Virus record (IMG/VR): IMGVR_UViG_3300009164_000002
Location: 1-64,000 of that record
Source of the DNA: a virus
Strand: one strand, 5' to 3'
Length of the DNA stretch: 64,000 nt
Of the stretch, positions 1-32,088 are shown in pieces. The position numbers were made by a program, and so were the translations under genes. The notes below the pieces were generated by a model. The model did no database searches, was not told the origin of the DNA, and saw only the letters and a list, made by a program, of their open reading frames with translations. Numbering within the stretch: the stretch's first letter is position 1; each line of letters begins with the position of its first letter.

Positions 1-1
1 A

Positions 2-17276: not shown

Positions 17277-17288
17277 TTTATTAAATTA

Positions 17289-18106: not shown

Positions 18107-18124
18107 ATTATGAATTGTTTACTT

Positions 18125-18763
18125 TTAAGTCTCTTCAGTTACGTTGTATGCCCACGCGTCGGAGTCTTCTGTTGCCCATTTGTCGTAAGCTTCGCAATTC
18201 CATTCGTCAGTATTGACCTTGTAATCAGGTTTCTCTGGATATGGTTTGGTAACATGAGACGGTTCAAACCAACGCAGTCTGTTGTTTGGCTGAAGGGCAT
18301 ATTCTCCGTTATCAAGTTCAATAAAATGTGCACTTTTATGCTCTGCTGGATCGACTGCAAGCGAAAGGTCAATGCCATGTGTCATGTCTGATCCCCATTG
18401 CATTGTCCATAAGTATCTCCCCCTTGCCCATTTGCCAGACTTCAACCTAACTTCAACAATCAAACCAGAAATGTATTGCAACTCAACCAAGTTGAAATTT
18501 GAGCTAAAACAATTCCAAAGTTGAAGATGGTGAAACGGATGTTCGTGTTCATGCTCAACGTGATGTAAGGCATGAATTGGCAGTTTGTCTCTCAACACTC
18601 CGTTCTCAAGCAACACTTGAAATAAAGCTCCATTGCCGGGTATTGACCGAACTGAAATCATAACTCCGAGTTCGTATTCTCCATGCCCTGCTTTGTGATC
18701 AAGCATGAACTCTCTTCGAACTAAAACTTTAATTGGTGGTGTTGATACTTCGTGCAATGCCAT
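18125..18763 (-). CDS. Unrecognised protein, 212 aa
   Basis: Not recognised. It has a His-rich patch 'HALHHVEHEHEHPFHHL' (about residues 64-80) that could bind metal, flanked by beta-like segments, and an aromatic-rich C-terminus. No transmembrane segment. It is in the middle of the minus-strand accessory block. Confidence 0.6.
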   Translation of the reverse strand: MALHEVSTPPIKVLVRREFMLDHKAGHGEYELGVMISVRSIPGNGALFQVLLENGVLRDKLPIHALHHVEHEHEHPFHHLQLWNCFSSNFNLVELQYISGLIVEVRLKSGKWARGRYLWTMQWGSDMTHGIDLSLAVDPAEHKSAHFIELDNGEYALQPNNRLRWFEPSHVTKPYPEKPDYKVNTDEWNCEAYDKWATEDSDAWAYNVTEET

Positions 18764-18767
18764 AATA

Positions 18768-19094
18768 TTATTGTTTTTGACGTTCTTCGCTTTTTACAAT
18801 TATTTTGGCTAGTTGTCTTGATGTGGTAATCTTACTGACTTTGCCGTCATGTCCAGCTTCCATTTTCTTCGCACCGCAGTCGTTTTCAAATAAATACCAA
18901 CTGATCCAGTCGTGTCTATCTACCATTTGGAGCATAGATTCAAATGCAGACCAAATGGCGTGGAACAAAGGTCCTGAACAATTTAACACTCCAGCACTAT
19001 CAGCTGCGTCGCACCATTTACTTAGGTCTTTATAATTAAAAACAATCTTTTCAATTTTTTTTGTCCATTGTTCAATGCGTTCTTCTTTATTCAT
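18768..19094 (-). CDS. Unrecognised protein, 108 aa
   Basis: Not recognised. The middle is rich in Trp and Cys (SKWCDAADSAGVLNCSG; HDWISWYLFENDCG), the ends are basic. Its start overlaps the stop of the membrane microprotein at 19087-19170. Confidence 0.55.
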   Translation of the reverse strand: MNKEERIEQWTKKIEKIVFNYKDLSKWCDAADSAGVLNCSGPLFHAIWSAFESMLQMVDRHDWISWYLFENDCGAKKMEAGHDGKVSKITTSRQLAKIIVKSEERQKQ

Positions 19095-19170
19095 AGTTGT
19101 TGTTTTTGCATAAGTTGTAAATAATCAAGGCGATAAAAATTAAAATTATTAAAATTATTTCATATCTCAT
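19087..19170 (-). CDS. Single-span membrane microprotein, 27 aa
   Basis: ATG 19170 to TAA 19087. It begins MRYEIILIILIFIALIIYN and has a short polar tail. Almost the whole peptide is one hydrophobic helix. The stop codon lies inside the start of the next gene (ATGAATAA), so it is likely translated in the same operon. A similar microprotein lies at 22447-22527. Confidence 0.55.
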   Translation of the reverse strand: MRYEIILIILIFIALIIYNLCKNNNYE

Positions 19171-19171
19171 A

Positions 19172-19396
19172 TTAATAGTCGTCTTCTATGAATTTAGGCT
19201 TATAACCTTTTACTACTTCATATTCTCCAGTTTCCAATATAAGTCCATACTCTCCTCCTACATAGACTTGTCCACGCTCTTTCCATTCTGGAAGGTTCTT
19301 GGCTACTACAGCAGGGTAAACTTCTTCTGGAACTATTTTGATGGCCGTCCCAAGCATTGTAAATGTCTTAACTGGTCTTACGTAAATGATCTTCAT
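19172..19396 (-). CDS. Small protein, 74 aa
   Basis: Not recognised. Mostly beta-like with several Val, Gly and Tyr residues (GQVYVGGEYGLILETGEYEV). It is followed after one base by the start of the membrane microprotein. Confidence 0.5.
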   Translation of the reverse strand: MKIIYVRPVKTFTMLGTAIKIVPEEVYPAVVAKNLPEWKERGQVYVGGEYGLILETGEYEVVKGYKPKFIEDDY

Positions 19397-19414
19397 GATT
19401 AATTGATAATATTC

Positions 19415-19663
19415 TTACTTGTCCCAGTCAATAATTGATCTTCCAGACATAAGACAAATCGTAAGGAAAGCATTACGAGCATAGCGGTTATCAGCCACAA
19501 TCATACCTTAGATAAAAGAGCATTCAATAGTTCTTGCTCGTTTAGTTCCAATTTTAACATCATTGCTTTTGAGGATGTATTTAATCGCGTCGATAATTTC
19601 ATCGTTTGTTTTAAGCACTTCAGGCGCTTTCAATGATTGTTCTTCTGTAATTAGTTTATTCAT
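19415..19663 (-). pseudogene. Gene interrupted by an in-frame TAA (51 + 29 codons)
   Basis: ATG 19663 opens a 51-codon frame that stops at TAA 19508-19510. Two codons later, in the same frame, ATG 19504 opens 29 more codons that end at TAA 19415. The two halves join smoothly (…ECSFI, stop, GMIVADNRYARNAFLTI…), as if one roughly 82-residue protein had acquired a nonsense codon. Alternatives are two separate small genes with re-initiation, or read-through. A TTTAG-N5-CTAAA element lies 4 bases before the first ATG, so transcription is probably still driven. Confidence 0.55.
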
Positions 19664-19667
19664 ATTG

Positions 19668-19682
19668 TTTAGTTTGGCTAAA
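19668..19682 (-). promoter_or_regulatory. TTTAG-N5-CTAAA palindrome (copy d)
   Basis: TTTAGCCAAACTAAA on the minus strand, four bases before ATG 19663. Confidence 0.7.
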
Positions 19683-20060
19683 GTTTACGCGTTACACAGT
19701 CGCGCCCCTGTTTCAATTGTCTATGCCTAGGCTTAGAGGTTGATCATGTTTCCACAGGGATTCTGTTTTACAGCCCGGCTCTTGATTTGTTATCCGATCT
19801 TTTTGTCTGTTACTGAAAATGGTAGGGAGGGGGTGTAGCTTTCCCGTGATGCGCACTACTGTAGTCACCCCGCCTTTGACGGGCTCCCATTACTTGTCTT
19901 TCCAAGCAGTCATCTTAAGCACCCTTTTGCGGAAGAACCGCGCATTTACGTTTTCAGGTGATTACGGACCATTCTTCTGTCTCGTTGTTGGTCATGCACG
20001 ACTTACTCACGGCTTTAAGGAACTATGAGCAGGGACAATGCAGAAATCATATATACATCC
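19683..20060 (-). other. GC-richer gene-free stretch, possible structured RNA or micro-ORF chain
   Basis: No ordinary gene. The base composition is clearly richer in G+C than the neighbours. Local inverted repeats on the minus strand include CCCG-N7-CGGG and ACTAC-A-GTAGT. Three micro-ORFs are chained: MRGSSAKGCLR (ATGA) MTAWKDK (TAATG) and a 26-codon frame beginning MGARQRRGDY. It lies between a gene with a 3' hairpin and the interrupted gene. It could be a non-coding RNA. I could not match it to RNase P, SRP or 6S RNA. Confidence 0.4.
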
Positions 20061-20073
20061 AGCGCGTAGCGTT
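20061..20073 (-). repeat. AGCGC-GTA-GCGTT hairpin (copy 2)
   Basis: The same 13-base hairpin with GTA as the triloop and one G-T pair. Its last base is the first base of the stop codon of the gene 20073-20525. Confidence 0.65.
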
Positions 20074-20525
20074 TATGCTTCAATTGTTTCAACATTACTA
20101 AATATTCGCAACGCAAGATCTTCAATTGTCTTTTTGACTTGGTTGTTATTTAGTAATGGATTTTGAGGTTTTAAAGAATCAATAATTTTCTTTTTAGCTC
20201 TATCTTCATAGAAATGTTCGCTTTTGTATTTTGCTATTTTTTTTGTTAATTGCTTACATTCTGTTGAAGATAAATATAATGTAATACTTGATGATTCTTG
20301 ATAGGGATTTACACAAAGTTGAAATTCATCTGGATTAGCTTTTTTAAGTTCTCTTAATCCAGCATCAAGTAATTGTTTTTCGATTCCTTTGCGAAGTTTG
20401 TTTTTGTTTTCTTCTTCTTTTTTGTGCAATTCTTTTGCTTTAATAAGCAAGGCTTCAATCAATTGACCTTTAGTTGGTTTTGGTATAATCTTATTAATCT
20501 TAGGAGATATTATTAGTTCGGACAT
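20073..20525 (-). CDS. Unrecognised charged protein, 150 aa
   Basis: Not recognised. Basic and helical with Lys/Glu runs (KELHKKEEENKNKLRKG). The start overlaps the stop of the 51-aa gene (TAATG). Confidence 0.55.
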   Translation of the reverse strand: MSELIISPKINKIIPKPTKGQLIEALLIKAKELHKKEEENKNKLRKGIEKQLLDAGLRELKKANPDEFQLCVNPYQESSSITLYLSSTECKQLTKKIAKYKSEHFYEDRAKKKIIDSLKPQNPLLNNNQVKKTIEDLALRIFSNVETIEA

Positions 20526-20680
20526 TATTTAGGTTTTTTCTTTTGTTTGATCTTTGCTTCTTGTTTTAGCATTTCTTTGGTTGGCTTTTTACCTGAACCT
20601 GCGGCTGCTCTGATATTATCATATAATCCACGTTGTGATGTTGAACCGTCAGCACGTTTAATCATTTGTTTCTTTCTCAT
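20525..20680 (-). CDS. Conserved small basic phage protein, 51 aa
   Basis: ATG 20680 to TAA 20525. It begins MRKKQMIKRADGSTSQRGLY and continues 'DNIRAAAGSGKKPTKEML'. This 'K-R-A-D-G-S-x-S-Q-R-G-L-x-D-N-I-R ... G-S-G-K-K-P-T' pattern is a recurring small phage family of unknown function. Strongly basic. Confidence 0.75.
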   Translation of the reverse strand: MRKKQMIKRADGSTSQRGLYDNIRAAAGSGKKPTKEMLKQEAKIKQKKKPK

Positions 20681-20692
20681 ATGTTTATTTAA

Positions 20693-20944
20693 TTAAAATG
20701 TTTTAACTCCTCTTTTATGCAGTTCTCTTTTAAGGTCGCGATAACGGTGAAATTCATAGCTATCTTTCACTTTCGTTACAGGAAGACTTCTTAAATCAGA
20801 TACAATTGCCATAATTGTTTCTGTTTTCATAGTATGATTATATTGGCTATAGATACCATTTAGTGTTTCATAAGGTTTCAATTGTTTTTTTTTGATGGTA
20901 GTATAGCGATGCTCTCCTGTTTTTCTTTTTGTTTGAGCAATCAT
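20693..20944 (-). CDS. Small basic protein, 83 aa
   Basis: Not recognised. Basic, with a Lys/Tyr-rich N-terminal half and a C-terminal helix (YRDLKRELHKRG). Confidence 0.5.
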   Translation of the reverse strand: MIAQTKRKTGEHRYTTIKKKQLKPYETLNGIYSQYNHTMKTETIMAIVSDLRSLPVTKVKDSYEFHRYRDLKRELHKRGVKTF

Positions 20945-20947
20945 GAT

Positions 20948-21358
20948 TTATCTATTGGCATGTTGATTTGCGATTATCATTTGCGTTGGAGCCCATACTT
21001 CTAGTATATGCAACCTTAAGCGTTCTCCATTATAATGTTCACAAGTGCTGCCTTTTTCGTATTCAATTGTCACTTCAAATTCTGTGCAATCGTCAGAAAT
21101 GCTGTCTATACGGCACGGAGCCATGTAATGGTATCTTTGTTCATTATGAGTTATTGAATGGACTATAGGACTATGCACGGAGCAGTAACCGCCTATTGTA
21201 GTTGAATCTACTTTAGGACCATCCCATTCCTTCCAAACCATTCTTAGAAACTTGTGATGATTTTCTATTTCTTTTTTTAAGTCTTCTTTTTCTTTAGTCG
21301 CGGCTAAAGTTTTTTCTTCTTGATCAAAGAAATCAAATATTGGTGTTGTTAATGTCAT
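20948..21358 (-). CDS. Unrecognised protein, 136 aa
   Basis: Not recognised. An acidic helical N-terminus, then a His/Cys-rich beta region (CSVHSPIVHSITH; CEHYNGERLRLHI). It overlaps the upstream gene by 26 bases. Confidence 0.5.
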   Translation of the reverse strand: MTLTTPIFDFFDQEEKTLAATKEKEDLKKEIENHHKFLRMVWKEWDGPKVDSTTIGGYCSVHSPIVHSITHNEQRYHYMAPCRIDSISDDCTEFEVTIEYEKGSTCEHYNGERLRLHILEVWAPTQMIIANQHANR

Positions 21359-21746
21359 TTATTGTAAAGGATATTAGTGCGTTAGCGTGAGCAATTGCCG
21401 CCTCTTTACTTAAGTGGATTAATCCCTTAGACTTAAAGGTTTTATCGCTGGAAGCATCATCCCAAGTGTATATATCATATCCAGTTTGCCCCCACAAGAT
21501 GGGCGTGTAATAATATACACCCAACGACATCTCACCACGATACGGCTCAGGAACTTCGTGTCCGTTGATGTTAATAGTCTTCGGCTTGCGGCGGTATTGG
21601 GTATTCGTAAACCAGATAGGATAAACTTGTCTCAGTGGTCTCCAAACTTGATTATCGAAATACTCCCATCTTTCCCAAGGCGTTTCTGTTTCCATTGCGT
21701 CCTTGGCGTATTCCATCATCAACTCAGCATGTTTGTGTGGTTTCAT
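21333..21746 (-). CDS. Unrecognised protein, 137 aa
   Basis: Not recognised. Trp- and Tyr-rich in the first half (WERWEYFDNQVWRPL) with an 'INGHEVPEPYRG' segment often seen in small phage proteins. It overlaps both neighbours by 20-26 bases. Confidence 0.55.
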   Translation of the reverse strand: MKPHKHAELMMEYAKDAMETETPWERWEYFDNQVWRPLRQVYPIWFTNTQYRRKPKTININGHEVPEPYRGEMSLGVYYYTPILWGQTGYDIYTWDDASSDKTFKSKGLIHLSKEAAIAHANALISFTINDINNTNI

Positions 21747-22137
21747 TTTTTTCTTTAATATAGTTTTCTAATACATCTGCAATTTCATCGAAAGTATATC
21801 CTCCGAAATCATTTAATTCTGGTAGAGTCATTTTTTCTTTCTCCCCATTTTTAGTTATATAATCAAATTGTTGGTATAAATTTATACCGTAATAATCTTT
21901 GAACCAATAATGATCTGGCAAGCCACTTGCAAAGTATCCTAATGAATCAATAATTCCTTTAATATTTCTTGATAATGGATATGGAACTAAAATACCTTGC
22001 ATTTCACAAGCTACTCCTAAGCAACAATAACCATCTTCAGTGCAAAGCTTATTAGTGATCTGTTTCCAATTGCCTGAACGTAATTCCTTGATCCATTCTT
22101 TTACGTTTTGTATTTGAGTTGTATTCATTGTATCCAT
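21724..22137 (-). CDS. Conserved phage protein with 'LRSGNWKQ...CCLGVACE' signature, 137 aa
   Basis: 'WIKELRSGNWKQ', 'GYCCLGVACEM' and 'LNDFGGYTFDEIADVLE' are the three conserved blocks of a widely distributed phage and bacterial protein family of unknown function. The two adjacent Cys may be structural. It overlaps the next gene by 14 bases. Confidence 0.75.
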   Translation of the reverse strand: MDTMNTTQIQNVKEWIKELRSGNWKQITNKLCTEDGYCCLGVACEMQGILVPYPLSRNIKGIIDSLGYFASGLPDHYWFKDYYGINLYQQFDYITKNGEKEKMTLPELNDFGGYTFDEIADVLENYIKEKNETTQTC

Positions 22138-22454
22138 TTATCAATTGTTTTAAGAAAAGCTTCTGCGCGTTGGGCTGCGGTGGCATGAACAATGTCAAAT
22201 GTATCGTCTAAACCAGAAGTGTAATAGCCTCCATTTAATTGATAGGCGTATTCTCTTTTGTCTTTTTGGCTTAATGTTTTCTCCGCCTCGTGCATCGCGT
22301 TGAGGTCGTTGAGGTAGTCGGGAATTCCGATACTGCCCCAGTATTTACCCTCCGCATTCATTCCTATGGAGGCAATACAAGATTCACCCCACATTCTGAC
22401 ATTGATAAACTCACAAGTCTCTGCGATGGCGATTCTTTGTTGTTCTTCAGTCAT
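22125..22454 (-). CDS. Unrecognised protein, 109 aa
   Basis: Not recognised. Mixed alpha/beta with 'MWGESCIASIGMNAEGKYWGS'. Its ATG overlaps the stop of the membrane microprotein just upstream, suggesting translational coupling. Confidence 0.55.
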   Translation of the reverse strand: MTEEQQRIAIAETCEFINVRMWGESCIASIGMNAEGKYWGSIGIPDYLNDLNAMHEAEKTLSQKDKREYAYQLNGGYYTSGLDDTFDIVHATAAQRAEAFLKTIDKWIQ

Positions 22455-22527
22455 ATTTGTAATAGAGTATTACCATAACAACTGTTATGACTGCGGCGAT
22501 TATGATTTCAATTGTATCTTCAGACAT
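22447..22527 (-). CDS. Single-span membrane microprotein, 26 aa
   Basis: ATG 22527 to TGA 22447. A short acidic N-terminus (MSEDTIE) precedes a hydrophobic helix (IIIAAVITVVMVILYY) and a KYD tail. The frame ends inside the start of the next gene. Of the same type as the microprotein at 19087. Confidence 0.6.
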   Translation of the reverse strand: MSEDTIEIIIAAVITVVMVILYYKYD

Positions 22528-22548
22528 AAATAAATAAATTTAGTTGAA

Positions 22549-23724
22549 TTAAAGTGTTTCTTTGAGCTTACCTTTGGCTTGTTTGATTATTTCTTTAATA
22601 AGATATGTTTGGAAGTTTCTATCCATGTCAAAATATCCAGCTACATGAGCGTTTTCTTCGAAAAGAGTTACTACAAGAAAGAACAAGCCCTCACTAAACG
22701 CTTTTTTAGTGAGATAGATGCTACCTTTGTATTCGTAAGCATAAGTGTTACCATCTTCTGAATGAACCATCTTGATTGGTGCAGTGATTGGATAACCTGC
22801 TTTAGTTAAGAATTCTTTGCCGCGCTCAATCATCAATGCTTCTTCTTCATCTGGTTCTATTAAAGTAAAAGCAGCTCCTTTCATTTTCTTGGAAATTAGC
22901 TTTTGAATACGGCTATTAAGTTTTGCTGGGCTGTTCGTCCAAAGATTAGTGACAATGTTTTTAAAGTCGTCTTTCCAATCCCAGTCAAAGTCCAAACGTT
23001 CTACTTCCCAACACATCTGGTTAGTGATGATGTTTGTAATAATTTCTTTGTCTTTAATATATCTTACGATTGCTTGTCCTACTTTTTGTGTGACTTGATG
23101 ATCATACTTGTATGTCCTGTCTTCAGTTAGTTCTAAGTAATCTTTGATGTGATAAGAATAGAGAGCTCCATCAACTGATCCTACTTTAACTCCTCTGTGG
23201 TAAATTGTTCCGTTGCCAGCATAAATATCTACACTGTCACTTGTTGCTAATGGCTCACGATCACCTATGAAGTAGTCGTTATGTTTCTTCATGCATTCAG
23301 CAAATTCTTTGCCTTCTACGATGATTGACGTGCCTTCTTCCATAGGCTCACCCATGAAGTGAATGCCTCCTTCGTCCATTGTATTGCTGACAAGCTCTCT
23401 GTAAGCTCCCCATACGTCCCATGTATGCCCGTAGTGGGTGGTGAAAGATAATGGCTTACCATTGCAGGTGATACGTTTGAACTCTTTACCACGGAAATTA
23501 AGGTCGATTAGCCCAAATTCATAAATGTTAGTGCCGGACTTGATCGTAATCTTATGTTCAGTTCGAAGTAGAACTGCAATAGCATAGCAAAGACCTGTGC
23601 CAAATTTACCAATAGCTTCATCTTGGTCAATTTTTGCACTAACTCCTTGCATTTCCCATGCTTCTGGTTGGATTTCTTCATTATTGTGGAAGATTATTTT
23701 ATTACTTAGTAATGTATTAGTCAT
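22549..23724 (-). CDS. Possible GHKL (HSP90-like) ATPase with permuted motifs, 391 aa
   Basis: IGKFGTGLCYAIA (residues 38-50) closely resembles the G2 box of HSP90 (I-G-Q-F-G-V-G-F-Y-S-A) and 'RELVSNTMDEGG' (109-120) resembles the N box (L-R-E-L-I-S-N-A-S-D-A). In HSP90, GyrB and MutL the N box comes first; here it follows G2. 'IIFHNNEEI' (10-18) could stand in for the G1 box. If real, this is a circularly permuted Bergerat-fold ATPase. Other clear domains are not seen; the C-terminal part is helical and may contact 'LFEENAHVAGY'. The role is unknown. The upstream leader is T/A-rich with no ribosome binding site. Confidence 0.5.
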   Translation of the reverse strand: MTNTLLSNKIIFHNNEEIQPEAWEMQGVSAKIDQDEAIGKFGTGLCYAIAVLLRTEHKITIKSGTNIYEFGLIDLNFRGKEFKRITCNGKPLSFTTHYGHTWDVWGAYRELVSNTMDEGGIHFMGEPMEEGTSIIVEGKEFAECMKKHNDYFIGDREPLATSDSVDIYAGNGTIYHRGVKVGSVDGALYSYHIKDYLELTEDRTYKYDHQVTQKVGQAIVRYIKDKEIITNIITNQMCWEVERLDFDWDWKDDFKNIVTNLWTNSPAKLNSRIQKLISKKMKGAAFTLIEPDEEEALMIERGKEFLTKAGYPITAPIKMVHSEDGNTYAYEYKGSIYLTKKAFSEGLFFLVVTLFEENAHVAGYFDMDRNFQTYLIKEIIKQAKGKLKETL

Positions 23725-23771
23725 TTTTGTGTGTTTTCTTTTATTGATATTTAGAATCTATAAACTTATCT

Positions 23772-23784
23772 AGCGCGAAGCGCT
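23772..23784 (-). repeat. AGCGC-GAA-GCGCT hairpin (copy 3)
   Basis: Identical to copy 1. It begins one base after the stop codon of the gene 23786-24016. Confidence 0.75.
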
Positions 23785-23785
23785 T

Positions 23786-24016
23786 TTAGTCAGCGTCGAT
23801 TTGTTCTTCACATTCGTAGTTTGAGTCAGTAAATATCTCTTTTCTATATTTGCTCATAACTGTCTTCTCACAGCTATTACATACGCTTTGGCAGTATATG
23901 CCCCGCGCGTCATAAAGAGGGAACCATGGCAGTTCTGAGCCGCAACTACAGGCATTGTAGGGAACTCTATCGTTGCTTAGTGTTATTGTATTTTCTTGAG
24001 TGTTAATGCTATACAT
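23786..24016 (-). CDS. Small Cys-rich protein, 76 aa
   Basis: Cys residues in 'YNACSCGSELPWF', 'YCQSVCNSCEK' and 'YECEE' suggest a zinc ribbon. Function unknown. It has the palindromic element three bases before the ATG and a 13-base hairpin at its 3' end, so it may be a separate cistron. Confidence 0.6.
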   Translation of the reverse strand: MYSINTQENTITLSNDRVPYNACSCGSELPWFPLYDARGIYCQSVCNSCEKTVMSKYRKEIFTDSNYECEEQIDAD

Positions 24017-24019
24017 TGT

Positions 24020-24034
24020 TTTAGTCAGGCTAAA
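24020..24034 (-). promoter_or_regulatory. TTTAG-N5-CTAAA palindrome (copy e)
   Basis: TTTAGCCTGACTAAA on the minus strand, three bases before ATG 24016. Confidence 0.7.
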
Positions 24035-24035
24035 G

Positions 24036-24227
24036 TTATTTCCATGCCTTTTTTTTTGCTATCTCATAAGTCTTATAAGTATCAATTAATTTATCATCAT
24101 GATATAGATCAAAGACGTTGTTTTCACATACATGAGTTTCACCCATAGCGAATATAACGCCATCAGGCTTGCGACTTTGTTTGATTGTAAAGCCTTCCTT
24201 GAATTTATATTCTTTATAGTTTTCCAT
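24036..24227 (-). CDS. Small protein, 63 aa
   Basis: Not recognised. A short beta-rich protein (EGFTIKQSRKPDGVIFAMG) with a basic C-terminus, resembling small nucleic-acid-associated phage proteins only in size. Confidence 0.5.
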   Translation of the reverse strand: MENYKEYKFKEGFTIKQSRKPDGVIFAMGETHVCENNVFDLYHDDKLIDTYKTYEIAKKKAWK

Positions 24228-24229
24228 GT

Positions 24230-24448
24230 TTATTTACGTATTACGTGATACAATGGTGCTGATTTAACCCAAATGGTTCGGCTGAGCTCATTTAATACAA
24301 TGGGCTTTGTCTTTTGATACACTCCACCCTCTTTGCATATAGGGTCTAGTTGTGCTTTAATCTTAGATATTTCATTTAATGTCGCATTTAATGTTATTTG
24401 CATAGCTAGGAACGTAAGCCCAATTATTACAGTTAGTGTCGTTATCAT
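24230..24448 (-). CDS. Small membrane-anchored protein, 72 aa
   Basis: The start at 24448 is chosen because it overlaps the upstream stop by ATGA. It then begins MITTLTVIIGLTFLAMQITL, a single N-terminal membrane helix, followed by a charged helix (NEISKIKAQLD). An in-frame start at 24487 is less likely. A toxin-like or lysis-accessory protein is possible. It is not in the lysis cassette. Confidence 0.55.
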   Translation of the reverse strand: MITTLTVIIGLTFLAMQITLNATLNEISKIKAQLDPICKEGGVYQKTKPIVLNELSRTIWVKSAPLYHVIRK

Positions 24449-24870
24449 CTCGCTAATGTTACTGATTCTGGGAGATAATCCCCCCAACTTGCTGTGTTGT
24501 ATTTTTCTTTGGAAATGCTTTTGAATTTTACATAGACATCTATGCCTTCAATTAACTCAAATGTCCTTTTTAACGTGGCGAATATAAATATTGGTTCGCA
24601 TCTTACTTTCCCGTTAATTACTTCATACGCACTATTGGTTATCGTTTCTTCGAATAGTATCTTTCTGAATTGGAAAGCATTTTTTGACAGCTTATTGCTG
24701 ACTTCGAATACAATATAGTCGGATTTAACATCTGTTTTAGCTTTGATCCATGCTTCGCAAATGAACAATCTACCCCACTCGTAGCCTTTCTCTCTTCTTT
24801 CAGCTGTATCAAGACGATAGTCATTGCCTTGTTTGATTAGCATTAGTTCTATGTGATCGTATTTTTGCAT
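24445..24870 (-). CDS. Unrecognised protein, 141 aa
   Basis: Not recognised. Alpha/beta, with 'IELMLIKQGNDYRLDTAERR' at the start and 'GIDVYVKFKSISKEKY' near the end. It lies just downstream of the tmRNA and its trailing structure, so it may be separated from that transcript by termination. Confidence 0.5.
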   Translation of the reverse strand: MQKYDHIELMLIKQGNDYRLDTAERREKGYEWGRLFICEAWIKAKTDVKSDYIVFEVSNKLSKNAFQFRKILFEETITNSAYEVINGKVRCEPIFIFATLKRTFELIEGIDVYVKFKSISKEKYNTASWGDYLPESVTLAR

Positions 24871-24900
24871 ATAGTAAAATTGATTATTGTAAAAAAAGGT

Positions 24901-24978
24901 GCGTGATCTAGGAGGGACTTTCGATGTTTCACCGCCTTCAATGTCACAGACGTATATGTTGCACCGCTAGACCACGCA
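24901..24978 (-). ncRNA. tRNA-shaped RNA structure downstream of tmRNA, possibly a terminator
   Basis: On the minus strand GCGTGGTCTAG at the 5' end pairs perfectly (one G-U) with CTAGATCACGC at the 3' end: an 11-bp closing stem around about 55 bases. CGTCT/AGGCG forms an inner stem. ACC and seven U follow directly, so it may end the tmRNA transcript. It lies about 14 bases after the tmRNA CCA. The closing stem looks like a tRNA acceptor and the 5' start resembles 'GGTCTAGCGGT' of tRNAs, but no canonical T arm or 7-base anticodon loop can be fitted. Confidence 0.45.
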
Positions 24979-24991
24979 TTATTTAGGAAAA

Positions 24992-25400
24992 TGGTGGAGG
25001 TGTCGGGAGTTGAACCCGAGTCCTTAACGCTTTTCACAATCTTTTCGAACACGTTTATATTAGCTCGTCAAAGTGAGCCAGTCTTAGGGACATTCCAGTT
25101 ATGGAACATCCTCCACCATCCTGTCTTTACGCCACAGACTTGCGTTGTTTTCCCGTTTTGTATCTTATCATAGAGCGGGAGTATTGATAAGCGTGTTTGA
25201 CCTGCGTCGATTAAGCAGCAGCAAGCTCGCGCTCCACGAAACCGTGGAATTCAAGGATGTTGTTTGCTTCCTCAACGGAAGGTGCGAATTCGTTAGAATC
25301 TGCATTTATTTGTTTTTAATCGGCTTTTAACGCAGCCAACCGATTAACTGCGACGTGCTTAGATTGAGTAGAGCATTAAGTCGAAACCATTTGCACCCCC
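24992..25400 (-). ncRNA. ssrA: tmRNA (transfer-messenger RNA), 409 nt
   Basis: The 5' end GGGGGTG pairs with CACCTCC before an encoded ACCA 3' end (7 bp, one G-U). The 5' tRNA-like part has TGGTTTCGAC, the 3' part a T arm TCGGG-TTCAACT-CCCGA. A pseudoknot follows the 5' domain (CGCAG/CTGCG interleaved with TTAATCGG/CCGATTAA), then an A-rich spacer and resume codon GCA at 25303. The tag frame runs 30 codons to TAA 25211, starting ADSNEFAPSV and ending VERELAAA. tmRNA with SmpB rescues stalled ribosomes and tags the nascent chain for proteolysis. No smpB is seen. Tags are usually 8-25 residues, so this one is long. Phage tmRNAs are known but uncommon. Confidence 0.93.
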
Positions 25401-25442
25401 GTAAAAATTGATTGTAATGCACTTATTAAGATTGACTAGTGC

Positions 25443-25482
25443 AAAAAAAGAAAGCCCCCACCCCGATTAAGGAGTGAGGGCT
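25443..25482 (-). terminator. Rho-independent terminator
   Basis: On the minus strand AGCCCTCACTCC pairs with GGGGTGGGGGCT around TTAATC and is followed by TTCTTTTTTT. It ends the transcript of the gene at 25500 and separates it from the tmRNA. Confidence 0.9.
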
Positions 25483-25499
25483 GAATACACACGATGAGA

Positions 25500-25928
25500 T
25501 TAGAACGCTGGCTCGTCTGCTTCTGAGCCGAGTCCGAAAGCTGCGAGGAAGTCTTTGTTTTCTTTGAGACGACCAAGTGCTTCTGAGTCTTTGACGTTGC
25601 TTAGGAAGCAATGAACTGTTCCGTTCTTGACTTTGGATTTGTTCTTGAGTGCCCACAAGTTGATATACTGGAGGTCACCGATTGCGTCTGCATTGTCCAT
25701 GTATACGCCAGTGGAGTAGATGGCATCTCCATTGCGACTTGCTGCACGAACGGCTGCATCTGCTTCTGGATTAGCCGTTGTGGTCATGCGAACGACACCG
25801 TTAGCGTCTGCAATTTCTTCGTTCTTGACGCGATACACAACTTTGGTTGTTTCTGGTTTGAACGCGAGATATTTACGCACTTCTAGTTCTTCTGCTTGGT
25901 CACGGACATGTAGTAATACTGTTTTCAT
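25500..25928 (-). CDS. Unrecognised protein with acidic C-terminal tip, 142 aa
   Basis: Not recognised. Predicted alpha/beta. The C-terminus 'GLGSEADEPAF' is a short acidic tail with a terminal Phe, like the interaction tip of SSB proteins. It has a strong terminator at its 3' end. Together with the 561-aa gene upstream it forms a two-gene unit with more G+C and different codon choice from the rest of the block, so it may have been acquired or be highly expressed. Confidence 0.7.
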   Translation of the reverse strand: MKTVLLHVRDQAEELEVRKYLAFKPETTKVVYRVKNEEIADANGVVRMTTTANPEADAAVRAASRNGDAIYSTGVYMDNADAIGDLQYINLWALKNKSKVKNGTVHCFLSNVKDSEALGRLKENKDFLAAFGLGSEADEPAF

Positions 25929-26013
25929 TTCTATTTGTTTCTTTCTGTTTGTTTGTTATTGGTGTGTCTCCCTCAACTCCGTATTGAAGCTGAGAGAGAC
26001 TAATTTACTCACT

Positions 26014-26026
26014 AGCACGAAGTGCT
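26014..26026 (-). repeat. AGCAC-GAA-GTGCT hairpin (copy 4)
   Basis: The G-C pair of copies 1 and 3 is replaced by A-T on both arms, a compensatory change that supports base pairing. It overlaps the first base of the stop codon of the gene at 26026. Confidence 0.75.
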
Positions 26027-27711
26027 TAAGCAAGAGCTATATCAAGTGTTCTATGAAACTCACGCTGTGCACGTTTTTCTGACGAGTATTCGAACTTGTC
26101 ATAGATCATGTTCGCAAGGACACGTTTGAGCGTAGGTGACGCATTACGTGCTGTTGTTGGTCTTTCTGGCAGTTTTGGTATTGCTTTGGTGACGATTTTC
26201 CTACCTTCTACCATAATACCTGTTGTTCCGCGTTTGAGGCGACGCACTGAGCCATGACGACCTTCTGGTTTATTATCACTTGTTAGTGTCACTCTGCTTT
26301 CGATGTGATTGTCTGGCAGTATGTGTGCGTTTTCTATCACACGCACTTTAGTTTGGCTAAATGCGTTTTCTGTGAACACATAACGCGGGACGACCTGCAC
26401 GGCTTCTTGCGTATGATTCTCTAGTATCATTTCTAGAGTGTTAATCATGCGAGTGAATAACTTGATACGCATTAGGGCTGAGTTGTAGGCTTCGAAAGCC
26501 CACGCTTCGCCTGTCCCGTTAAGTATGCTAAGGAACTTTGCTGTGTCTTGCGTTGCACCCTTAAGCCCGTGATACCATTGCATCTCGCCTTTGTCGTTGA
26601 TTGCTTGCTCACCATAGAGAAGCTCTGTCACTTGTGGACGTGTTAAATCCTCTTTGGTGATGGATGTCTCATTAAGGTCTAGTTTACTTTGCAAGAACAT
26701 GACAAGCTCAAGCTCTGCATCATCTTCTGCAAACTTAGACGTGTCTATTGCATAACCTTCTTTGTCACGCTCTACGCCTAAGTTGTATGAAGCCTCCGCA
26801 GGATCTTCGTAATCTACGATGATTTCTTCTTCATCGTGAATCTCTAGGTCACTGCAATCTTTTAGGATGTAGTAGTCTAGCTCTGATACGCTGAGCGGAG
26901 GTTCTTCTGCGACTTGCTTCATGGTCAAAGCTCCGTTCTCGTCTAACCAGTAACGGCTTGGAGTGAGTTTAGGATCTTTTTGCCATGATACGATGACTAA
27001 CCAACAGTCTTGAAACCAAATTGTTGTGTAAGCAGGGATGATGTCTGTCAAACCCGTGAGCTCTTGTAGGATGCTGTGAGCACCGCCACGTATATCTTTA
27101 CCAAGACGCTTTGCAATACTTTGCATTGCTGCATCTGGTGCTGATCTAAGCACTGGTGACCATGCACCATCATGTTTTCCTAGATCGCAATACGTGCCGT
27201 CTGGAAGGCGGATTGCATAGCGAGCAGGTTCGTGTTGCATACCATTACCCTCTGATTTGATGAGAGGTGGAAGCTCGTAAACTTCTGCTGAGTGCCATTT
27301 ACCGCCATTCTTGCGTGTGTTTGTCTTAGCACCATGACGCTGAGCACGACGGATAACGCCCTGCTCTACTTTCCATTGTTCTAGACCACGTAGGCGTTCT
27401 GAAGCCCACATGAGAGAAGCAATCTTATCTTCTACGGTTTTGAGCCCGTCAAACGCTTCCTTCATTACTTTGTCTGCACCTTTTGGCAGCCATTTACCGA
27501 AGTTACGCTGCATTATGATTTTAGCAGCACGATCTAATAGAGCGGCTTGCATAGACTTGTCTAGCTTGAAACGTTCTGGTTTCTCTGACTTAGATGCGGA
27601 GACTTCTTCTAGCATCATTAGTATCTGATCTGGAAGAGCGAATCCTCCGTCAGTGATCTCAGTGTTAAGTCCTGAGTATGTTTTTAGCGTCTTGAACGCG
27701 GTATTTTTCAT
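26026..27711 (-). CDS. Large unrecognised protein, 561 aa
   Basis: Not recognised. Residues 60-130 are helical and basic ('RAAKIIMQRNFGKWLPKGAD', 'VIRRAQRHGAKTNTRKNGG'), residues 290-350 are strongly acidic ('IHDEEEIIVDYEDPAEA'), and the C-terminus is basic again ('GRHGSVRRLKRGTTG'). This alternation suggests a nucleic-acid- or polymerase-interacting protein. No Walker, nuclease or zinc motif is seen. It contains an exact TTTAG-N5-CTAAA element (26347-26361). It starts from the divergence region, so it is probably expressed early. Confidence 0.75.
   Translation of the reverse strand: MKNTAFKTLKTYSGLNTEITDGGFALPDQILMMLEEVSASKSEKPERFKLDKSMQAALLDRAAKIIMQRNFGKWLPKGADKVMKEAFDGLKTVEDKIASLMWASERLRGLEQWKVEQGVIRRAQRHGAKTNTRKNGGKWHSAEVYELPPLIKSEGNGMQHEPARYAIRLPDGTYCDLGKHDGAWSPVLRSAPDAAMQSIAKRLGKDIRGGAHSILQELTGLTDIIPAYTTIWFQDCWLVIVSWQKDPKLTPSRYWLDENGALTMKQVAEEPPLSVSELDYYILKDCSDLEIHDEEEIIVDYEDPAEASYNLGVERDKEGYAIDTSKFAEDDAELELVMFLQSKLDLNETSITKEDLTRPQVTELLYGEQAINDKGEMQWYHGLKGATQDTAKFLSILNGTGEAWAFEAYNSALMRIKLFTRMINTLEMILENHTQEAVQVVPRYVFTENAFSQTKVRVIENAHILPDNHIESRVTLTSDNKPEGRHGSVRRLKRGTTGIMVEGRKIVTKAIPKLPERPTTARNASPTLKRVLANMIYDKFEYSSEKRAQREFHRTLDIALA
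26347..26361 (-). promoter_or_regulatory. TTTAG-N5-CTAAA palindrome inside a gene
   Basis: TTTAGCCAAACTAAA on the minus strand, identical to copy d, and coding for FSQTK. It is about 420 bases upstream of the next gene (25928). Confidence 0.4.
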
Positions 27712-27732
27712 ATAGTGTGTATCTTTCTTGAA

Positions 27733-27751
27733 CTTACTAATGAGTAGTAAG
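27733..27751. promoter_or_regulatory. CTTACTA-N5-TAGTAAG inverted repeat
   Basis: A 7-bp perfect inverted repeat lying 22 bases upstream of the start of the 561-aa gene. It is a plausible operator. Confidence 0.4.
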
Positions 27752-27768
27752 CTGTTATTTTAGCATCC

Positions 27769-27781
27769 AGCACGAAGTGCT
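27769..27781. repeat. AGCAC-GAA-GTGCT hairpin (copy 5)
   Basis: Identical to copy 4 but not at the end of a recognised gene. Its right arm can also pair with AAAGCAC at 27796-27802, giving two mutually exclusive hairpins before the plus-strand gene at 27844. Confidence 0.55.
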
Positions 27782-27784
27782 TTG

Positions 27785-27799
27785 TTTAGTCTGCCTAAA
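27785..27799 (+). promoter_or_regulatory. TTTAG-N5-CTAAA palindrome in divergent region
   Basis: TTTAGTCTGCCTAAA, 44 bases before ATG 27844 (+) and 73 bases before 27711 (-). It could serve either direction. Confidence 0.55.
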
Positions 27800-27843
27800 G
27801 CACGGGCAGTTTCGTGTTTGACCAAGTGCGGTCTAAAGTGTAA

Positions 27844-28341
27844 ATGTCTGTTATGACTGAAGAGAAACAAAAAGGCTTGCCGTGCATCCATCCCAATAAG
27901 ATCGTAAGAGACGAAGACTGGGTAGGAATCAAGCACATGGCAGAACAAGGAGTAGGCTATGAAGAGCTAGGTGCACAGTTTGGTGTAAAGGCTTGCACTA
28001 TCGGTAAGAAGGCTTCTAAGGAGCGTTGGCTCACTCCGACACGCATAGCTAGAGCAAAGAATGGAAACGTCTCTGAGGACGATCCTGCGGCTGCTATCGC
28101 CCTATTGTGGAAAAGACGCGGCGTAGATTCAAGGGACAAGGTTTATCAAGGAGCTACTAAAGCCCTAGATAGGTTCTTTGCAATGTCCCCTGTCCCCCAA
28201 AGCTTCAACGAAGCACAAATAGCTCTTAAGATGGTAAATGAATCTATCAACCCTAATGGAGAGCTTACACATAACGCAAATGTCTCTATTCACGTCCTTG
28301 CTTCTAAGGAGTTCAGTCCGACTCCCGTTATAGATGTTTAA
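27844..28341 (+). CDS. HTH protein, candidate small terminase subunit, 165 aa
   Basis: Residues 27-60 ('IKHMAEQGVGYEELGAQFGV', then KACTIGKKASKERWLTPTRI) form a helix-turn-helix of the type found in small terminase subunits, where W-x-T-P-x-R-I often ends the domain. The middle is helical and could be the oligomerisation segment. TerS binds DNA at the packaging site and recruits TerL. It is 3.7 kb upstream of terL, farther than usual, so a transcription factor is the alternative. The start could also be the second ATG, three codons on. Confidence 0.55.
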   Translation: MSVMTEEKQKGLPCIHPNKIVRDEDWVGIKHMAEQGVGYEELGAQFGVKACTIGKKASKERWLTPTRIARAKNGNVSEDDPAAAIALLWKRRGVDSRDKVYQGATKALDRFFAMSPVPQSFNEAQIALKMVNESINPNGELTHNANVSIHVLASKEFSPTPVIDV

Positions 28342-28879
28342 ACGCAAACCATTCGCATTAGTGTGTTTCTTGCGTCTGGTTCGTTCTGTAGTTTAGTCAT
28401 ACCGTCTCGGAGGTGATTATCCAATCCCCTCTAAAACTCCTAATAGACCTACAAACACCTATACCTCTCCTCCTTGATCTCCAACCTACCTCCAAACCTA
28501 CCTTTATGCCATACATGTGACACAAAAATAAGTATGAATAAGCAGAGGGGAGAGGGGGGGAAAGGTGTATATACAAAGGAAATCCTAAGACCCTTGGTAA
28601 AACTACGATTGAAACCAGTAAAAAAGTTCGGCACAGATGGATGTAAGTGGTTCTAAGGTGTGGTTACACAGCCCCAGAGAGGAAAGCACCGTAGTTATTA
28701 GTTACGATGCTCTCTAGCTCTAGGTAGAATAAAGTTATTGACTCCTTATTCTAATTGGGTTTAACTACGCGCGGATGTGATTCCATTGTCTTATCTGAAC
28801 GCCGTCCTCGTAGGCTTTACGAGTAAACCGCAGAAGGAATAGAAAGGTTATCCTTACGTATGGCTAAAGAGGGAGTATT
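28342..28879. other. Intergenic region of the divergence zone
   Basis: Contains a polypyrimidine/polypurine stretch with a G7 run (about 28545-28560), an AGAATAA/TTATTCT inverted repeat (about 28727-28753), an imperfect hairpin AGAGAG…CTCTCT (about 28676-28718) and one possible 40-codon gene. No clear terminator or promoter. Confidence 0.4.
28534..28656 (+). CDS. Possible small basic protein, 40 aa
   Basis: ATG 28534. Starts MNKQRGEGGKGVYTKE and is rich in Lys and Arg (ILRPLVKLRLKPVKKFG). The basic composition is protein-like, but there is no ribosome binding site and its 5' part is the G-rich tract. Uncertain. Confidence 0.3.
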   Translation: MNKQRGEGGKGVYTKEILRPLVKLRLKPVKKFGTDGCKWF

Positions 28880-29446
28880 ATGAATCAATTCATGACCTTA
28901 GAAGAAAGAAGAGCGAAGCGCGAAGCTACTCGCTCTTTTCGTGTGTCTAGAAAGAAAGAGCTCAAGGAGAAGCGAGATAACTTAACTCCTGACCAGATTC
29001 AGTGGCTTGAAGATCATCGTGTTAAAGAGGATCGAGTTCATGATCATAAGGTGTGTTGCCTAACCTGTAAGCGCATGAAGAGCTTAGATCAGTTTGCATT
29101 TAAGACAGCCTTGCGTTGTATGGTCTGTGATAAGTCAGATGCAATAGCGCAGTTATTCACCACTAGGTTATACAGCTTGGTATCTGGACGCATTAAGCAC
29201 CATCGTATTGAGAGGTTCTTAGGTTGCAATCGTGACCAGCTACTGAAGCACTTAGAGAGCTTGTTTGTTGATGGTATGGGATGGCACAACCGAAACCTTT
29301 GGCACATAGACCACATAATCCCAGTCTCTCACTTCAATCACAATAATGATGATGAGGTGCAGAAGTGCTGGAACTACATGAATCTACGTCCATTGTGGGC
29401 TCACTTGAACCTAAAGAAGAGTAACAAGCTTGATACAGGTATCTAA
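28880..29446 (+). CDS. HNH endonuclease, 188 aa
   Basis: An Arg/Lys/Glu-rich N-terminus, then a zinc ribbon 'CLTCKRMKSLDQF…CMVCDK' (about residues 56-76) and a C-terminal HNH core 'LWHIDHIIPVSHFN' with 'NLRPLWAHLNLKKSNKL'. These are typical of free-standing phage HNH nucleases. A Shine-Dalgarno-like GGGAG lies 5 bases before the ATG. It shares the N-terminal string MTLEER-x-K-R with the minus-strand gene at 30138. Confidence 0.88.
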   Translation: MNQFMTLEERRAKREATRSFRVSRKKELKEKRDNLTPDQIQWLEDHRVKEDRVHDHKVCCLTCKRMKSLDQFAFKTALRCMVCDKSDAIAQLFTTRLYSLVSGRIKHHRIERFLGCNRDQLLKHLESLFVDGMGWHNRNLWHIDHIIPVSHFNHNNDDEVQKCWNYMNLRPLWAHLNLKKSNKLDTGI

Positions 29447-29472
29447 ATGTTGCCTCTCTTTTTGTTTGGTGG

Positions 29473-29730
29473 TTAAACCTTTGTGTAGAGTTCCATGAAT
29501 CTCTCTATTGGGTAGAGGGTGGATTCTATGGAGTTCTCGTTCCATTTCACGCCGAGCGTCCAGTTTGAGACGTAGTGGATGATACAACGTCTGCCACTGT
29601 GCTTAGCTATGTAAAGCTCCCCAGCTTTGGGTCTGAGAGGCTCTAGTTCATCCTGTCTTCTTCTCTCAAGGATCTCTAAGCAATCCTCGACGAATGTATC
29701 CATGTTTATCGGTTTGTTTATGTCTATCAT
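29473..29730 (-). CDS. Small protein, 85 aa
   Basis: Not recognised. An N-terminal helix (DCLEILERRRQDELEPL), then beta-like 'GELYIAKHSGRRCIIHYV'. Convergent with the HNH gene. Confidence 0.55.
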   Translation of the reverse strand: MIDINKPINMDTFVEDCLEILERRRQDELEPLRPKAGELYIAKHSGRRCIIHYVSNWTLGVKWNENSIESTLYPIERFMELYTKV

Positions 29731-30106
29731 ATTATTTGCATTTTGTTGTAGAAAGTTCTTGCACGTGTGTGCGTGTTATAGTTAAGTCTTTTCAGGCAGG
29801 GTCAGTTCGCCAATGATTTCGGTAGTTTTCTCAAAAGCTACTATAGGAGCCATAGACTGATGACCCCAGTCGTGGCTCCTTTCTTTTTGTATGAGGAAAG
29901 GGAATGCCACCTGTTCCATAGTCAGCACAGATCAACAGCAAATGACACACTGAGACGTTAGGGTTAAATAACTGAGCGTCCTTAAATAAGTCAGTTAGGG
30001 TCACTCTCTGCTCCACTGTGGTAATCCATGGGGGGTAGGGGGGTATTGAGAAATAAGAAACTCGTCAATGAATAACAAGATGCTCCTCACCCTTAACCAA
30101 GACTAA
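29731..30106 (+). other. Intergenic stretch with a possible small RNA
   Basis: No gene is supported. A plus-strand intrinsic terminator (29845-29888) has no gene in front of it, which points to a short RNA starting near a TATAGT box (about 29777). A hairpin GTAGTTTT/AAAAGCTAC lies at 29822-29841. Two G6 runs occur at about 30030-30046. A perfect GACTAA-G-TTAGTC palindrome (30101-30113) merges with the next element. Confidence 0.4.
29845..29888 (+). terminator. Rho-independent terminator
   Basis: AGGAGCCA pairs with TGGCTCCT, with inner GACT/AGTC, followed by TTCTTTTT on the plus strand. Confidence 0.8.
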
Positions 30107-30121
30107 GTTAGTCTGGCTAAA
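30107..30121 (+). promoter_or_regulatory. Near-match TTTAG-N5-CTAAA palindrome
   Basis: GTTAGTCTGGCTAAA, one mismatch. It ends one base before an ATG (30123) that opens only a 23-codon frame on the plus strand, so its target is unclear. Confidence 0.45.
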
Positions 30122-30137
30122 GATGAAGAGATTCACA

Positions 30138-30362
30138 TCATCCATTCCTATACCTGCCTTGACCAGTATTCACTTCACCATCTCTGCGGCTTGATTGCCA
30201 AGAGTCGTAAGCAATATACCTACGTCTTGAACTATCAATAGCAGGACGTTTTTCTCTCTGTCTCCTTAAGAACTCTTCATGAAGTCTTTCCACTTCGAGT
30301 TCCTCTAGTCGTTTCTTCTCTAGCCTTGCAGCCTTCCTTTTTGCTCTTTCCTCTAAGGTCAC
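30138..30362 (-). CDS. Basic coiled-coil protein, 74 aa
   Basis: The GTG start at 30362 has the strong ribosome binding site AAGGAGGT five bases upstream and overlaps the stop of the preceding gene (GTGA). The first 40 residues are an Arg/Lys/Glu helix (EERAKRKAARLEKKRLEELE). Its start resembles that of the HNH protein at 28880. Function unknown. Confidence 0.65.
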   Translation of the reverse strand: MTLEERAKRKAARLEKKRLEELEVERLHEEFLRRQREKRPAIDSSRRRYIAYDSWQSSRRDGEVNTGQGRYRNG

Positions 30363-30598
30363 TTGGCACCTCCTTCTAATGCATTAGCAGGTAGGCCGAT
30401 AGCTCTATCACTAGCATCACTGCACTTAGGGCAGATCAAAGCTATTATGATTAGTATTACGAGAGCTAGTAGGTTAAACCCAATGTAGCGAAGCTTGCCT
30501 TCATTAGCTGGGGTTGATTCTAAATAACTCTCACGTTCAATAAGCTGTTCTCTGGTCAGCTCTTCACCATTAGGTAGTTTCATTAGTTCATTATTCAT
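30359..30598 (-). CDS. Single-span membrane protein, 79 aa
   Basis: The start at ATG 30598 is preferred because AGAGGA lies 9 bases upstream; an earlier in-frame ATG at 30637 has none. A 35-residue polar N-terminus precedes one membrane helix (IGFNLLALVILIIIALI) and a short tail with two Cys. Probably a membrane accessory protein. Confidence 0.65.
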   Translation of the reverse strand: MNNELMKLPNGEELTREQLIERESYLESTPANEGKLRYIGFNLLALVILIIIALICPKCSDASDRAIGLPANALEGGAK

Positions 30599-30680
30599 AT
30601 GTGTATTCCTCTTCCTAGAGGGCTCAATGGTGACCACCGAGCGGGGAAGATGCCTGTTGTGCGGTCAGGCTCCGCGATAA

Positions 30681-30980
30681 TCAGAAAGGACAATCAACTA
30701 GAACCCTAGGACTAACTCCTCCCATGAGTTCATCATGAGCTAGAGAGTCCCAGAACTCCTGTTCAGCAGTCTCATCATACTCACGCTCTAGCATAGCTAT
30801 GCGATCACTGCATACCTTTTCAGCTTCCTTCTCCTTACCTAACTCATAGAGTCTATCAATTAGGTCAGTGGCTTGCTTCCATAGATGTGCAGTGTGAGGT
30901 CTACCATCCCATATCAGGTTGATAGCGTTCTGTGCATCGAGGGCGGCTTGGCATCTAGTTACATCATTTGTCTTAGTCAT
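30681..30980 (-). CDS. Unrecognised helical protein, 99 aa
   Basis: Not recognised. Helical and acidic ('LYELGKEKEAEKVCSDRIAM', 'EYDETAEQEFWDSLAHDEL'). First gene of a short minus-strand group. Confidence 0.55.
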   Translation of the reverse strand: MTKTNDVTRCQAALDAQNAINLIWDGRPHTAHLWKQATDLIDRLYELGKEKEAEKVCSDRIAMLEREYDETAEQEFWDSLAHDELMGGVSPRVLVDCPF

Positions 30981-31383
30981 AGTAGTGTGTGTTTGTGTTC
31001 AAGCTGGTGCATACAGAGCGTATACATTACAGCAAGGTGGTGATCACTACTCATGAGCTACAGATCCAATCCTAATGACTAGATGCTACACTAGGGGCGA
31101 CGGGTGTCCATCCACTCCCCAATATACTCACAGACTCCAGAGAGACAGTATGGGATACCTGTGATATTTTTTTTATTTCTGGTGATATTTTTTTATTTTG
31201 GGGCATCAATTTTATTTTATTTTTTTGGGGGATGAGAAAGAGAGGAGGGGGGGGTGTAAGAGGAATGTAATATATAAAGAGGGGGGGATATGTTAGGTTT
31301 TTACGAAAAAAAAATTGTTTTTTGTTTCGGCAAGATGTGGTAGAAGATTGCATGGCTGGGGCAAAACTATTACTAATTGACTT
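30981..31383. other. AT-tract and G-tract region upstream of the terminase block
   Basis: A 403-base gap with no gene. It has two near-identical copies of GTGATATTTTTTTATTT in tandem (about 31160-31198), long T runs, and G runs of 5 to 8 (about 31226-31290) on the plus strand. It could hold the late promoter, a replication origin or the packaging site. None can be assigned from sequence alone. Confidence 0.4.
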
Positions 31384-32085
31384 ATGAGTGAGATAGAAAA
31401 CAAGGGTCGGCAAAGCGACAACAAGGTTTTAGCTGCTAATTTAGGAGTAGATTTTGCAAAAGAATGGGCAATGGGAGAGGGTTTGGATAAGCTTACTGCT
31501 AAGTTAAAAATTCCGCTTGAGTCTTTAGCAGGAGGAGTTGGGAAAAAAGCAGTGAGCAAATTGGCTAGTGCACCAGCTGCTACCGCAATAGAAATAGTAA
31601 AGGGGCTTTATAAGCTAAGGAGTCCTGATGCTAGGGATGGAGATGCAGAAAAAGGTAGGCAGTTAATGCGAGAACCAGCGTGGTATCAGGTAGCAAATAC
31701 TATTTTGAATTCAGCTGATGCAATGAGTGAGTATGGTGCAGCAATAGAGGAATCAGACAAGAAGGCGTTTGATAAAGCAAATGATCAAGGATGGCAGTCG
31801 ATTAATGCAAAGGTTCAAGAGAAGTATGCAAGAAGTTCTTTAGCTCGTATGGAAGATGATCAAACAAATAGACTTATCGAGGATATAGCGTATGATCGGA
31901 GCTTGAGGGAAAAGAATGAAATGACGCGAGCAGCGGCTAAAGAATCTGGGAAGCCAATGGGTCCATTATATGGTGTTGAAAAAGAAACAGAATATAATCG
32001 TAAACAATTAGCAGAACAGGAAAAGATGAAAGATAAAGAAATAACAATGAATATGATTCGTTCTTATTTTAAAGATTACGCATAA
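31384..32085 (+). CDS. Unrecognised protein next to terminase, 233 aa
   Basis: Not recognised. Residues 45-80 are Ala/Gly-rich and amphipathic ('LAGGVGKKAVSKLASAPAAT'), the rest is charged helix. The position directly before terL, 3 bases away, makes it an alternative candidate for the small terminase or a minor virion protein. No ribosome binding site. Confidence 0.6.
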   Translation: MSEIENKGRQSDNKVLAANLGVDFAKEWAMGEGLDKLTAKLKIPLESLAGGVGKKAVSKLASAPAATAIEIVKGLYKLRSPDARDGDAEKGRQLMREPAWYQVANTILNSADAMSEYGAAIEESDKKAFDKANDQGWQSINAKVQEKYARSSLARMEDDQTNRLIEDIAYDRSLREKNEMTRAAAKESGKPMGPLYGVEKETEYNRKQLAEQEKMKDKEITMNMIRSYFKDYA

Positions 32086-32088
32086 TAT

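Follow-up and report, generated by a model that had tools for sequence, protein, structure and literature searches.

Phage-encoded tmRNAs: the described systems

tmRNA is a bacterial RNA that releases stalled ribosomes. The standard one-piece molecule, as represented by the model RF00023, consists of a tRNA-like domain, the pseudoknot PK1, a resume codon, a tag reading frame, further pseudoknots and a CCA end, and all of these elements recur in the phage gene described here. This gene differs from the standard by its tag of 30 amino acids, since tags are most often 10 amino acids long (PMC11915505), a length that bears out the statement in the original prediction that most tags are shorter. 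tmRNA genes are carried by only about 2.3% of phage genomes (PMC9004378), a frequency consistent with a conditional benefit.

One-piece phage tmRNAs, like the one studied here, are known from the mycobacteriophages Bxz1, Wildcat and Kumao, from Bacillus phage G and from the Streptomyces BE phages, and the Kumao RNA also has a long tag (31 amino acids). Their RNA bodies are alignable with that of our phage only in the conserved parts, and our phage, unlike this group, possesses no tRNA genes. In the marine cyanophages S-CAM1, S-CAM3, S-SSM7 and Sf-FS3, an ANNI-type tag core stands behind an additional N-terminal segment, an arrangement shared with our phage. This cyanophage segment, however, is seven residues long, is lacking in nearly all host tags and is unrelated in sequence to the extension reported below, and the cyanophage gene is two-piece and circularly permuted, whereas ours is one-piece. 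The ssrA gene of the OM43 phage Melnitz is a tmRNA gene of a lytic phage placed behind an early promoter, a setting that ours probably shares, but it is two-piece and stands under a glutamine riboswitch (PMC9004378); no riboswitch was found at our tmRNA gene. The gene is of a known kind and its tag variant is new. Although phage tmRNAs are already known, the phage family considered here offers a natural comparison in which the same locus carries an 18-residue tag, a 30-residue tag, or no gene at all; no description of this comparison was found in the searchable literature.

The tmRNA gene and its genomic setting

The stretch of DNA analysed (64,000 nucleotides; hereafter the window) comprises positions 1-64000 of a 66,967-bp IMG/VR record. 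The first 123 bases of this record are identical to its last 123, and an open reading frame of about 5,500 codons crosses the joined ends (55389-66967 continued by 1-5170 of the record); because of these two features the record is in all likelihood a complete phage genome. Similar frames of 4,800-5,500 codons are present in relatives (e.g., positions 16843-32904 of G411); the part tested had no family match. Replication genes lie on the left on the minus strand, and structural genes on the right on the plus strand. Protein families matched in the genome include a primase/helicase, an exonuclease, MazG, an HNH protein and an endolysin, while neither an integrase nor SmpB was among the matches listed; this is apparently a small phage with a lytic lifestyle. 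The structural proteins are for the most part without a family match; a 597-residue protein (32089-33882) matches terminase large subunits weakly. A sulfotransferase-family gene (36363-37163; Pfam E 1e-17) is located in the structural arm, adjoining a gene for a 713-residue leucine-rich-repeat protein.

ARAGORN called a single gene in the whole window, a one-piece tmRNA (ssrA) of 409 nt at positions 24992-25400 on the minus strand. RF00023 matched the same interval over the full model (1-374) with 121.3 bits (E=7.4e-47), well above its gathering score of 47 bits. The original prediction of a one-piece phage-encoded tmRNA with a 30-residue tag, which gave no strand and named the absence of a match to a tmRNA model as its refutation, was thus confirmed at exactly the predicted coordinates. 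A two-piece (permuted) gene was rejected, as ARAGORN reads the gene as one-piece and RF04321 reached only 30 bits against a cut-off of 47.

An explicit check of the pairs found every part that had been proposed from the letters alone: acceptor stem, T arm, CCA, pseudoknot, resume codon and TAA. The acceptor stem has seven of seven pairs, including a G3-T pair, and the T stem five of five; the tRNA-like domain contains the alanine identity region, the T arm and the CCA, and has no anticodon arm. Its 3' half (24992..25019, minus strand; RF00023 alignment and pairs) comprises the T arm, the 3' acceptor strand and the encoded CCA. PK1 (25316..25352, minus strand) is built from CGCAG/CTGCG (5/5 pairs) and TTAATCGG/CCGATTAA (8/8), all pairs being standard, with a paired sequence that differs in the relatives. 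PK2 (25151..25191, minus strand) forms 7/7 and 5/5 pairs, and PK3 (25120..25145, minus strand) forms ACGC/GCGT (4/4) and TCTGT/ACAGG (5/5), with CTCAG/CTGAG in the relatives. GCA, the resume codon, follows PK1 at a distance of 12 nt, within the spacing of about 10-12 nt that characterizes tmRNAs, and is followed by 30 codons and TAA.

The flanking DNA, read on the same strand, carries several candidate signals. Just upstream of the tmRNA gene, a consensus scan picked out a sigma-70-like promoter candidate, TAGTCA-N16-TACAAT (25411..25438; 9/12 matches), a weak candidate given that the 800-base region contains three such sites against 1.3 expected. A terminator-like hairpin with a T run (25453..25482) separates the upstream gene from the tmRNA gene, an arrangement similar in all relatives read. 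Directly downstream, a stem with 11 bp at its base is followed by ACC-TTTTTTT (24900..24978; fold z=-2.4); it has a tRNA-like outline and is possibly the terminator of the tmRNA transcript or a small RNA. The tmRNA gene belongs to the left, replication-side arm; the strand switch near 27.8 kb is about 2.4 kb away from it. This position makes early expression plausible.

Orthologues and absences among related phages

Twenty-two related contigs were retrieved via the primase, and their whole records were searched for tmRNA genes. Such genes are present in three contigs (G411, G403 and L213) that represent two phages, as L213 is nearly identical to G411 across the tmRNA stretch. In all three, the tmRNA gene lies downstream of a 561-codon gene, as it does in the window, and encodes the 18-residue tag GNNVIRGNFGSNTVALVA. 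Three further relatives of similar size (G406, G395 and G416) possess the same upstream gene and terminator-like hairpin, followed by more protein-coding sequence; they have no tmRNA gene at the syntenic site, and the gene is on this comparison dispensable for the phage family. Two relatives without a tmRNA gene contain segments resembling the Type-P1 twister ribozyme (L210, 2215-2266, and L211, 3661-3747), which scored 56 and 35 bits, respectively, against a cut-off of 67.

The RNA body of the window tmRNA is 71% identical to the orthologous phage RNA L170 and 63% identical to L169, with alignment scores of 94.5 and 74, while no other tmRNA collected scored above about 24. Both orthologues form the corresponding helices despite their different sequence, with the exception of PK2b, which is not formed in L169, and base changes preserve pairing in the acceptor stem (G-C to C-G), in the T stem (T-A to G-C) and in PK1. 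The gap between PK1 and the resume codon measures 12 nt in the window and 11 nt in both relatives, which places the resume codon at RNA positions 98 and 97, respectively. While the tag sequence has diverged, the site of resumption is unaltered and the tag frame is still open and ends in A-A or V-A, which is what selection for tagging would produce. By these comparisons, the window tmRNA is a homologue of the other phage genes that has been maintained, present in some members of the family and absent from others.

The 30-residue tag

The tag reading frame (25211..25303, minus strand; ARAGORN coding part 98-190), whose resume spacing is near-identical in the relatives, encodes ADSNEFAPSVEEANNILEFHGFVERELAAA followed by TAA; the peptide has 30 residues and ends in -LAAA. 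When aligned with L169 and L170, the length difference resolves into a 36-nt in-frame N-terminal segment encoding the 12 residues ADSNEFAPSVEE (25268..25303, minus strand), which is missing from the orthologous phage tmRNAs and precedes an 18-residue core, ANNILEFHGFVERELAAA in the window versus GNNVIRGNFGSNTVALVA in the sister phages. The [AG]NN[IV]-type core of Cyanobacteriota-type tmRNAs is recognizable as ANNILEF, but 12 residues in. The original prediction had singled out the length of the tag; its 30 residues are real, but a length of about 30 is not unique, given the Kumao tag, the tags of 21-31 residues in marine cyanophages, and one class of potential hosts with tags of up to 26. A further proposal, that the CCACG-GTTT-CGTGG hairpin within the frame is unusual, did not hold: the hairpin exists (TTCCACG/CGTGGAG; 25232..25249, minus strand), yet when the tag was recoded synonymously 2000 times, 22% of the versions gave a local hairpin that was as strong or stronger (p=0.22).

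If the extension arose by tandem duplication, this would fit a shared GAATTC...GT.GAG pattern (p=0.02 under base shuffling, 0.09-0.10 under codon shuffling), but the pattern is not significant and only a hint. We keep a duplication in view because some tags of the putative host class consist of two parts, and because of a cyanophage tag (L078, 6826 onwards) that reads ANNIDTA-ANNI, which suggests that a cyanophage prefix can arise through a repeat of the tag start.

A pattern search of viral contigs for ANNI-type tags brought up tmRNAs of cyanophages. The first scan, whose spacing window admitted extended two-piece tags only, yielded 51 two-piece calls with a seven-residue prefix (e.g., ANTSDSA-ANNIVAFSRSTVAA), and this prefix is likewise found in the isolates S-CAM1, S-SSM7 and Sf-FS3. 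A second scan with shorter spacing added 15 cyanophage tmRNAs without the prefix, and the freshwater phage S-CRM01 is also devoid of it. The tags of 30 picocyanobacterial genomes are the plain 16-mer in 29 cases, and ARAGORN gives VTANNIVRFSRQTAPVAA in the remaining one. These sequences indicate that N-terminal tag extension took place in phages on two or more occasions, with a different sequence each time, and that it is frequent without being universal. Among the records read, for instance those of S-CAM1 and S-SSM7, the two-piece cyanophage genes (L073-L130 and L139-L143) are unannotated or lie under hypothetical proteins; the tmRNA genes of Xanthomonas phage Rb1 and Alcaligenes phage QDWS595 (L202 and L203), permuted according to ARAGORN, are unannotated as well.

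Putative host

When genomes were scanned for one-piece tmRNAs whose tags start in a similar way, the matches came mostly from Cyanobacteriota; those outside this phylum that were read by ARAGORN (Planctomycetota, Acidobacteriota and one Thermoflexia genome) have ANNM and not ANNI. The GNNVIRGNFG segment of the sister phages matches the host tags ANDNVIAGNFG and ANNETVADNVIRVNFGS, and in one class of Cyanobacteriota, which includes many genomes of about 2 Mb alongside larger ones, some tags, for instance ANDNVIAGNFGGRALRAAA and ANNETVADNVIRVNFGSRARAAA, come near the sister-phage tag GNNVIRGNFGSNTVALVA. This class is probably Vampirovibrionia-like; among its genomes picked for long RF00023 spans, tags of 21-26 residues are frequent. 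Host tmRNAs of this class (L305-L311) have tags of 24-26 residues, several of which ARAGORN missed or misread, and some of these tags resemble two degenerate repeats (e.g., AESNVVAFGRK-SNVVRANFGSRRAA).

From these tag motifs, a cyanobacterial host seems rather likely, and a host within the Vampirovibrionia-like class can be put forward tentatively. In a tmRNA tree, the three phage RNAs cluster on a long branch apart from both cyanobacterial classes. No close match to the window tmRNA, and none to the portal-position protein, was found in 386 cyanobacterial genomes, and matches of the tmRNA DNA to phages and plasmids were confined to the T arm. An actinobacterial host was rejected, as none of 24 records contained WhiB. 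Gene content did not decide for a cyanophage either: the ferredoxin-like PHROG 3704 is mostly found in cyanophages, yet phages of Pelagibacter and of Flavobacterium have it too.

Function and alternative explanations

In our view, the gene quite probably encodes a functional tmRNA, inherited within the phage family, that works with SmpB and proteases of the host to free ribosomes. This reading is favoured by the completeness of the RNA, by the conserved spacing, by a tag frame that stays open and ends in A-A or V-A, and by base changes that preserve pairing. How the RNA is expressed, when, with which partners and to what effect, we infer as follows. The gene was probably acquired long ago from a Cyanobacteriota-type host and then inherited within the phage family. 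Its transcription would proceed from the leftward, replication-side arm, and host AlaRS would charge the RNA with alanine. SmpB would be supplied by the host, as the phage showed none, and together with EF-Tu would bring the RNA to ribosomes stalled on truncated mRNA. Alanine and the 30-residue tag would then be added, the ribosome would terminate at TAA, and the hydrophobic C-terminus (-LAAA) would direct the product to ClpXP-type proteolysis of the host. The phage may thereby gain freed ribosomes, and possibly amino acids, while host and phage mRNAs are cut in the course of takeover. Besides redirected trans-translation, the original prediction had raised protection of the phage's own mRNAs and compensation for a loss in the host as possible roles; none of the present results points to such a loss.

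Two readings that deny the gene a role of this kind seem to us very improbable. The RNA might be a decoy that titrates host SmpB, as the TLD-only RNA of mycobacteriophage DS6A, a type of molecule that inhibits tmRNA (PMC4131195); the least likely of the readings considered, it conflicts with the intact pseudoknots, resume codon, tag frame and stop. Scarcely more credible is a passenger, either an assembly chimaera or a piece of host ssrA that the phage picked up where it had integrated. Integration into tmRNA genes is common, and fragments of these genes occur in some phage records (e.g., H132), but the gene studied here is full-length, no integrase was among the matches listed, and the 386 cyanobacterial genomes hold no close match. 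A chimaera, which the original prediction had named as a possible refutation, is refuted by the orthologues at the same internal locus in other viral contigs, and these orthologues, along with the 123-bp terminal repeat, mark the tmRNA gene as a true phage gene.

More serious, although still unlikely, is the proposal that the longer and strongly acidic tag reprograms trans-translation by altering the choice of protease or adaptor, so that particular proteins are spared or targeted. The tag is extended relative to those of the sister phages, and its net charge of -6 compares with 0 to +5 in 19 tags of the putative host class and +2 in picocyanobacteria. The independent seven-residue prefix of the 51 cyanophage calls, which is absent from nearly all of the 30 picocyanobacterial hosts, points in the same direction. 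Against this proposal stand the degron-like C-terminal end that the tag retains, the 15 cyanophage tmRNAs without a prefix, the long tags in bacteria of the putative host class, and the ordinary 18-residue tag of the sister phages. If the gene is a working tmRNA of the usual kind, as we favour, the additional 12 N-terminal residues would spare the C-terminal degron and would most likely be neutral or act only modestly, through spacing or contact with an adaptor. The long-tagged bacterial class and the short-tagged sister phages advise caution about the importance of the extension.

A wider version of the reprogramming proposal, to which we likewise assign a low probability, would have phages repeatedly lengthen captured tmRNA tags by in-frame insertion just past the resume codon; the phage tag would then serve as a takeover device instead of copying the signal of the host. 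In this version, the added N-terminal segment would alter the delivery of tagged proteins to proteases in infected cells, and the cases would comprise the family of our phage, the marine cyanophages and perhaps Kumao. The prefix of many cyanophages, which nearly all of the host tags that were read lack, suggests that evolution on the phage side concerns the tag itself and not ribosome release alone.
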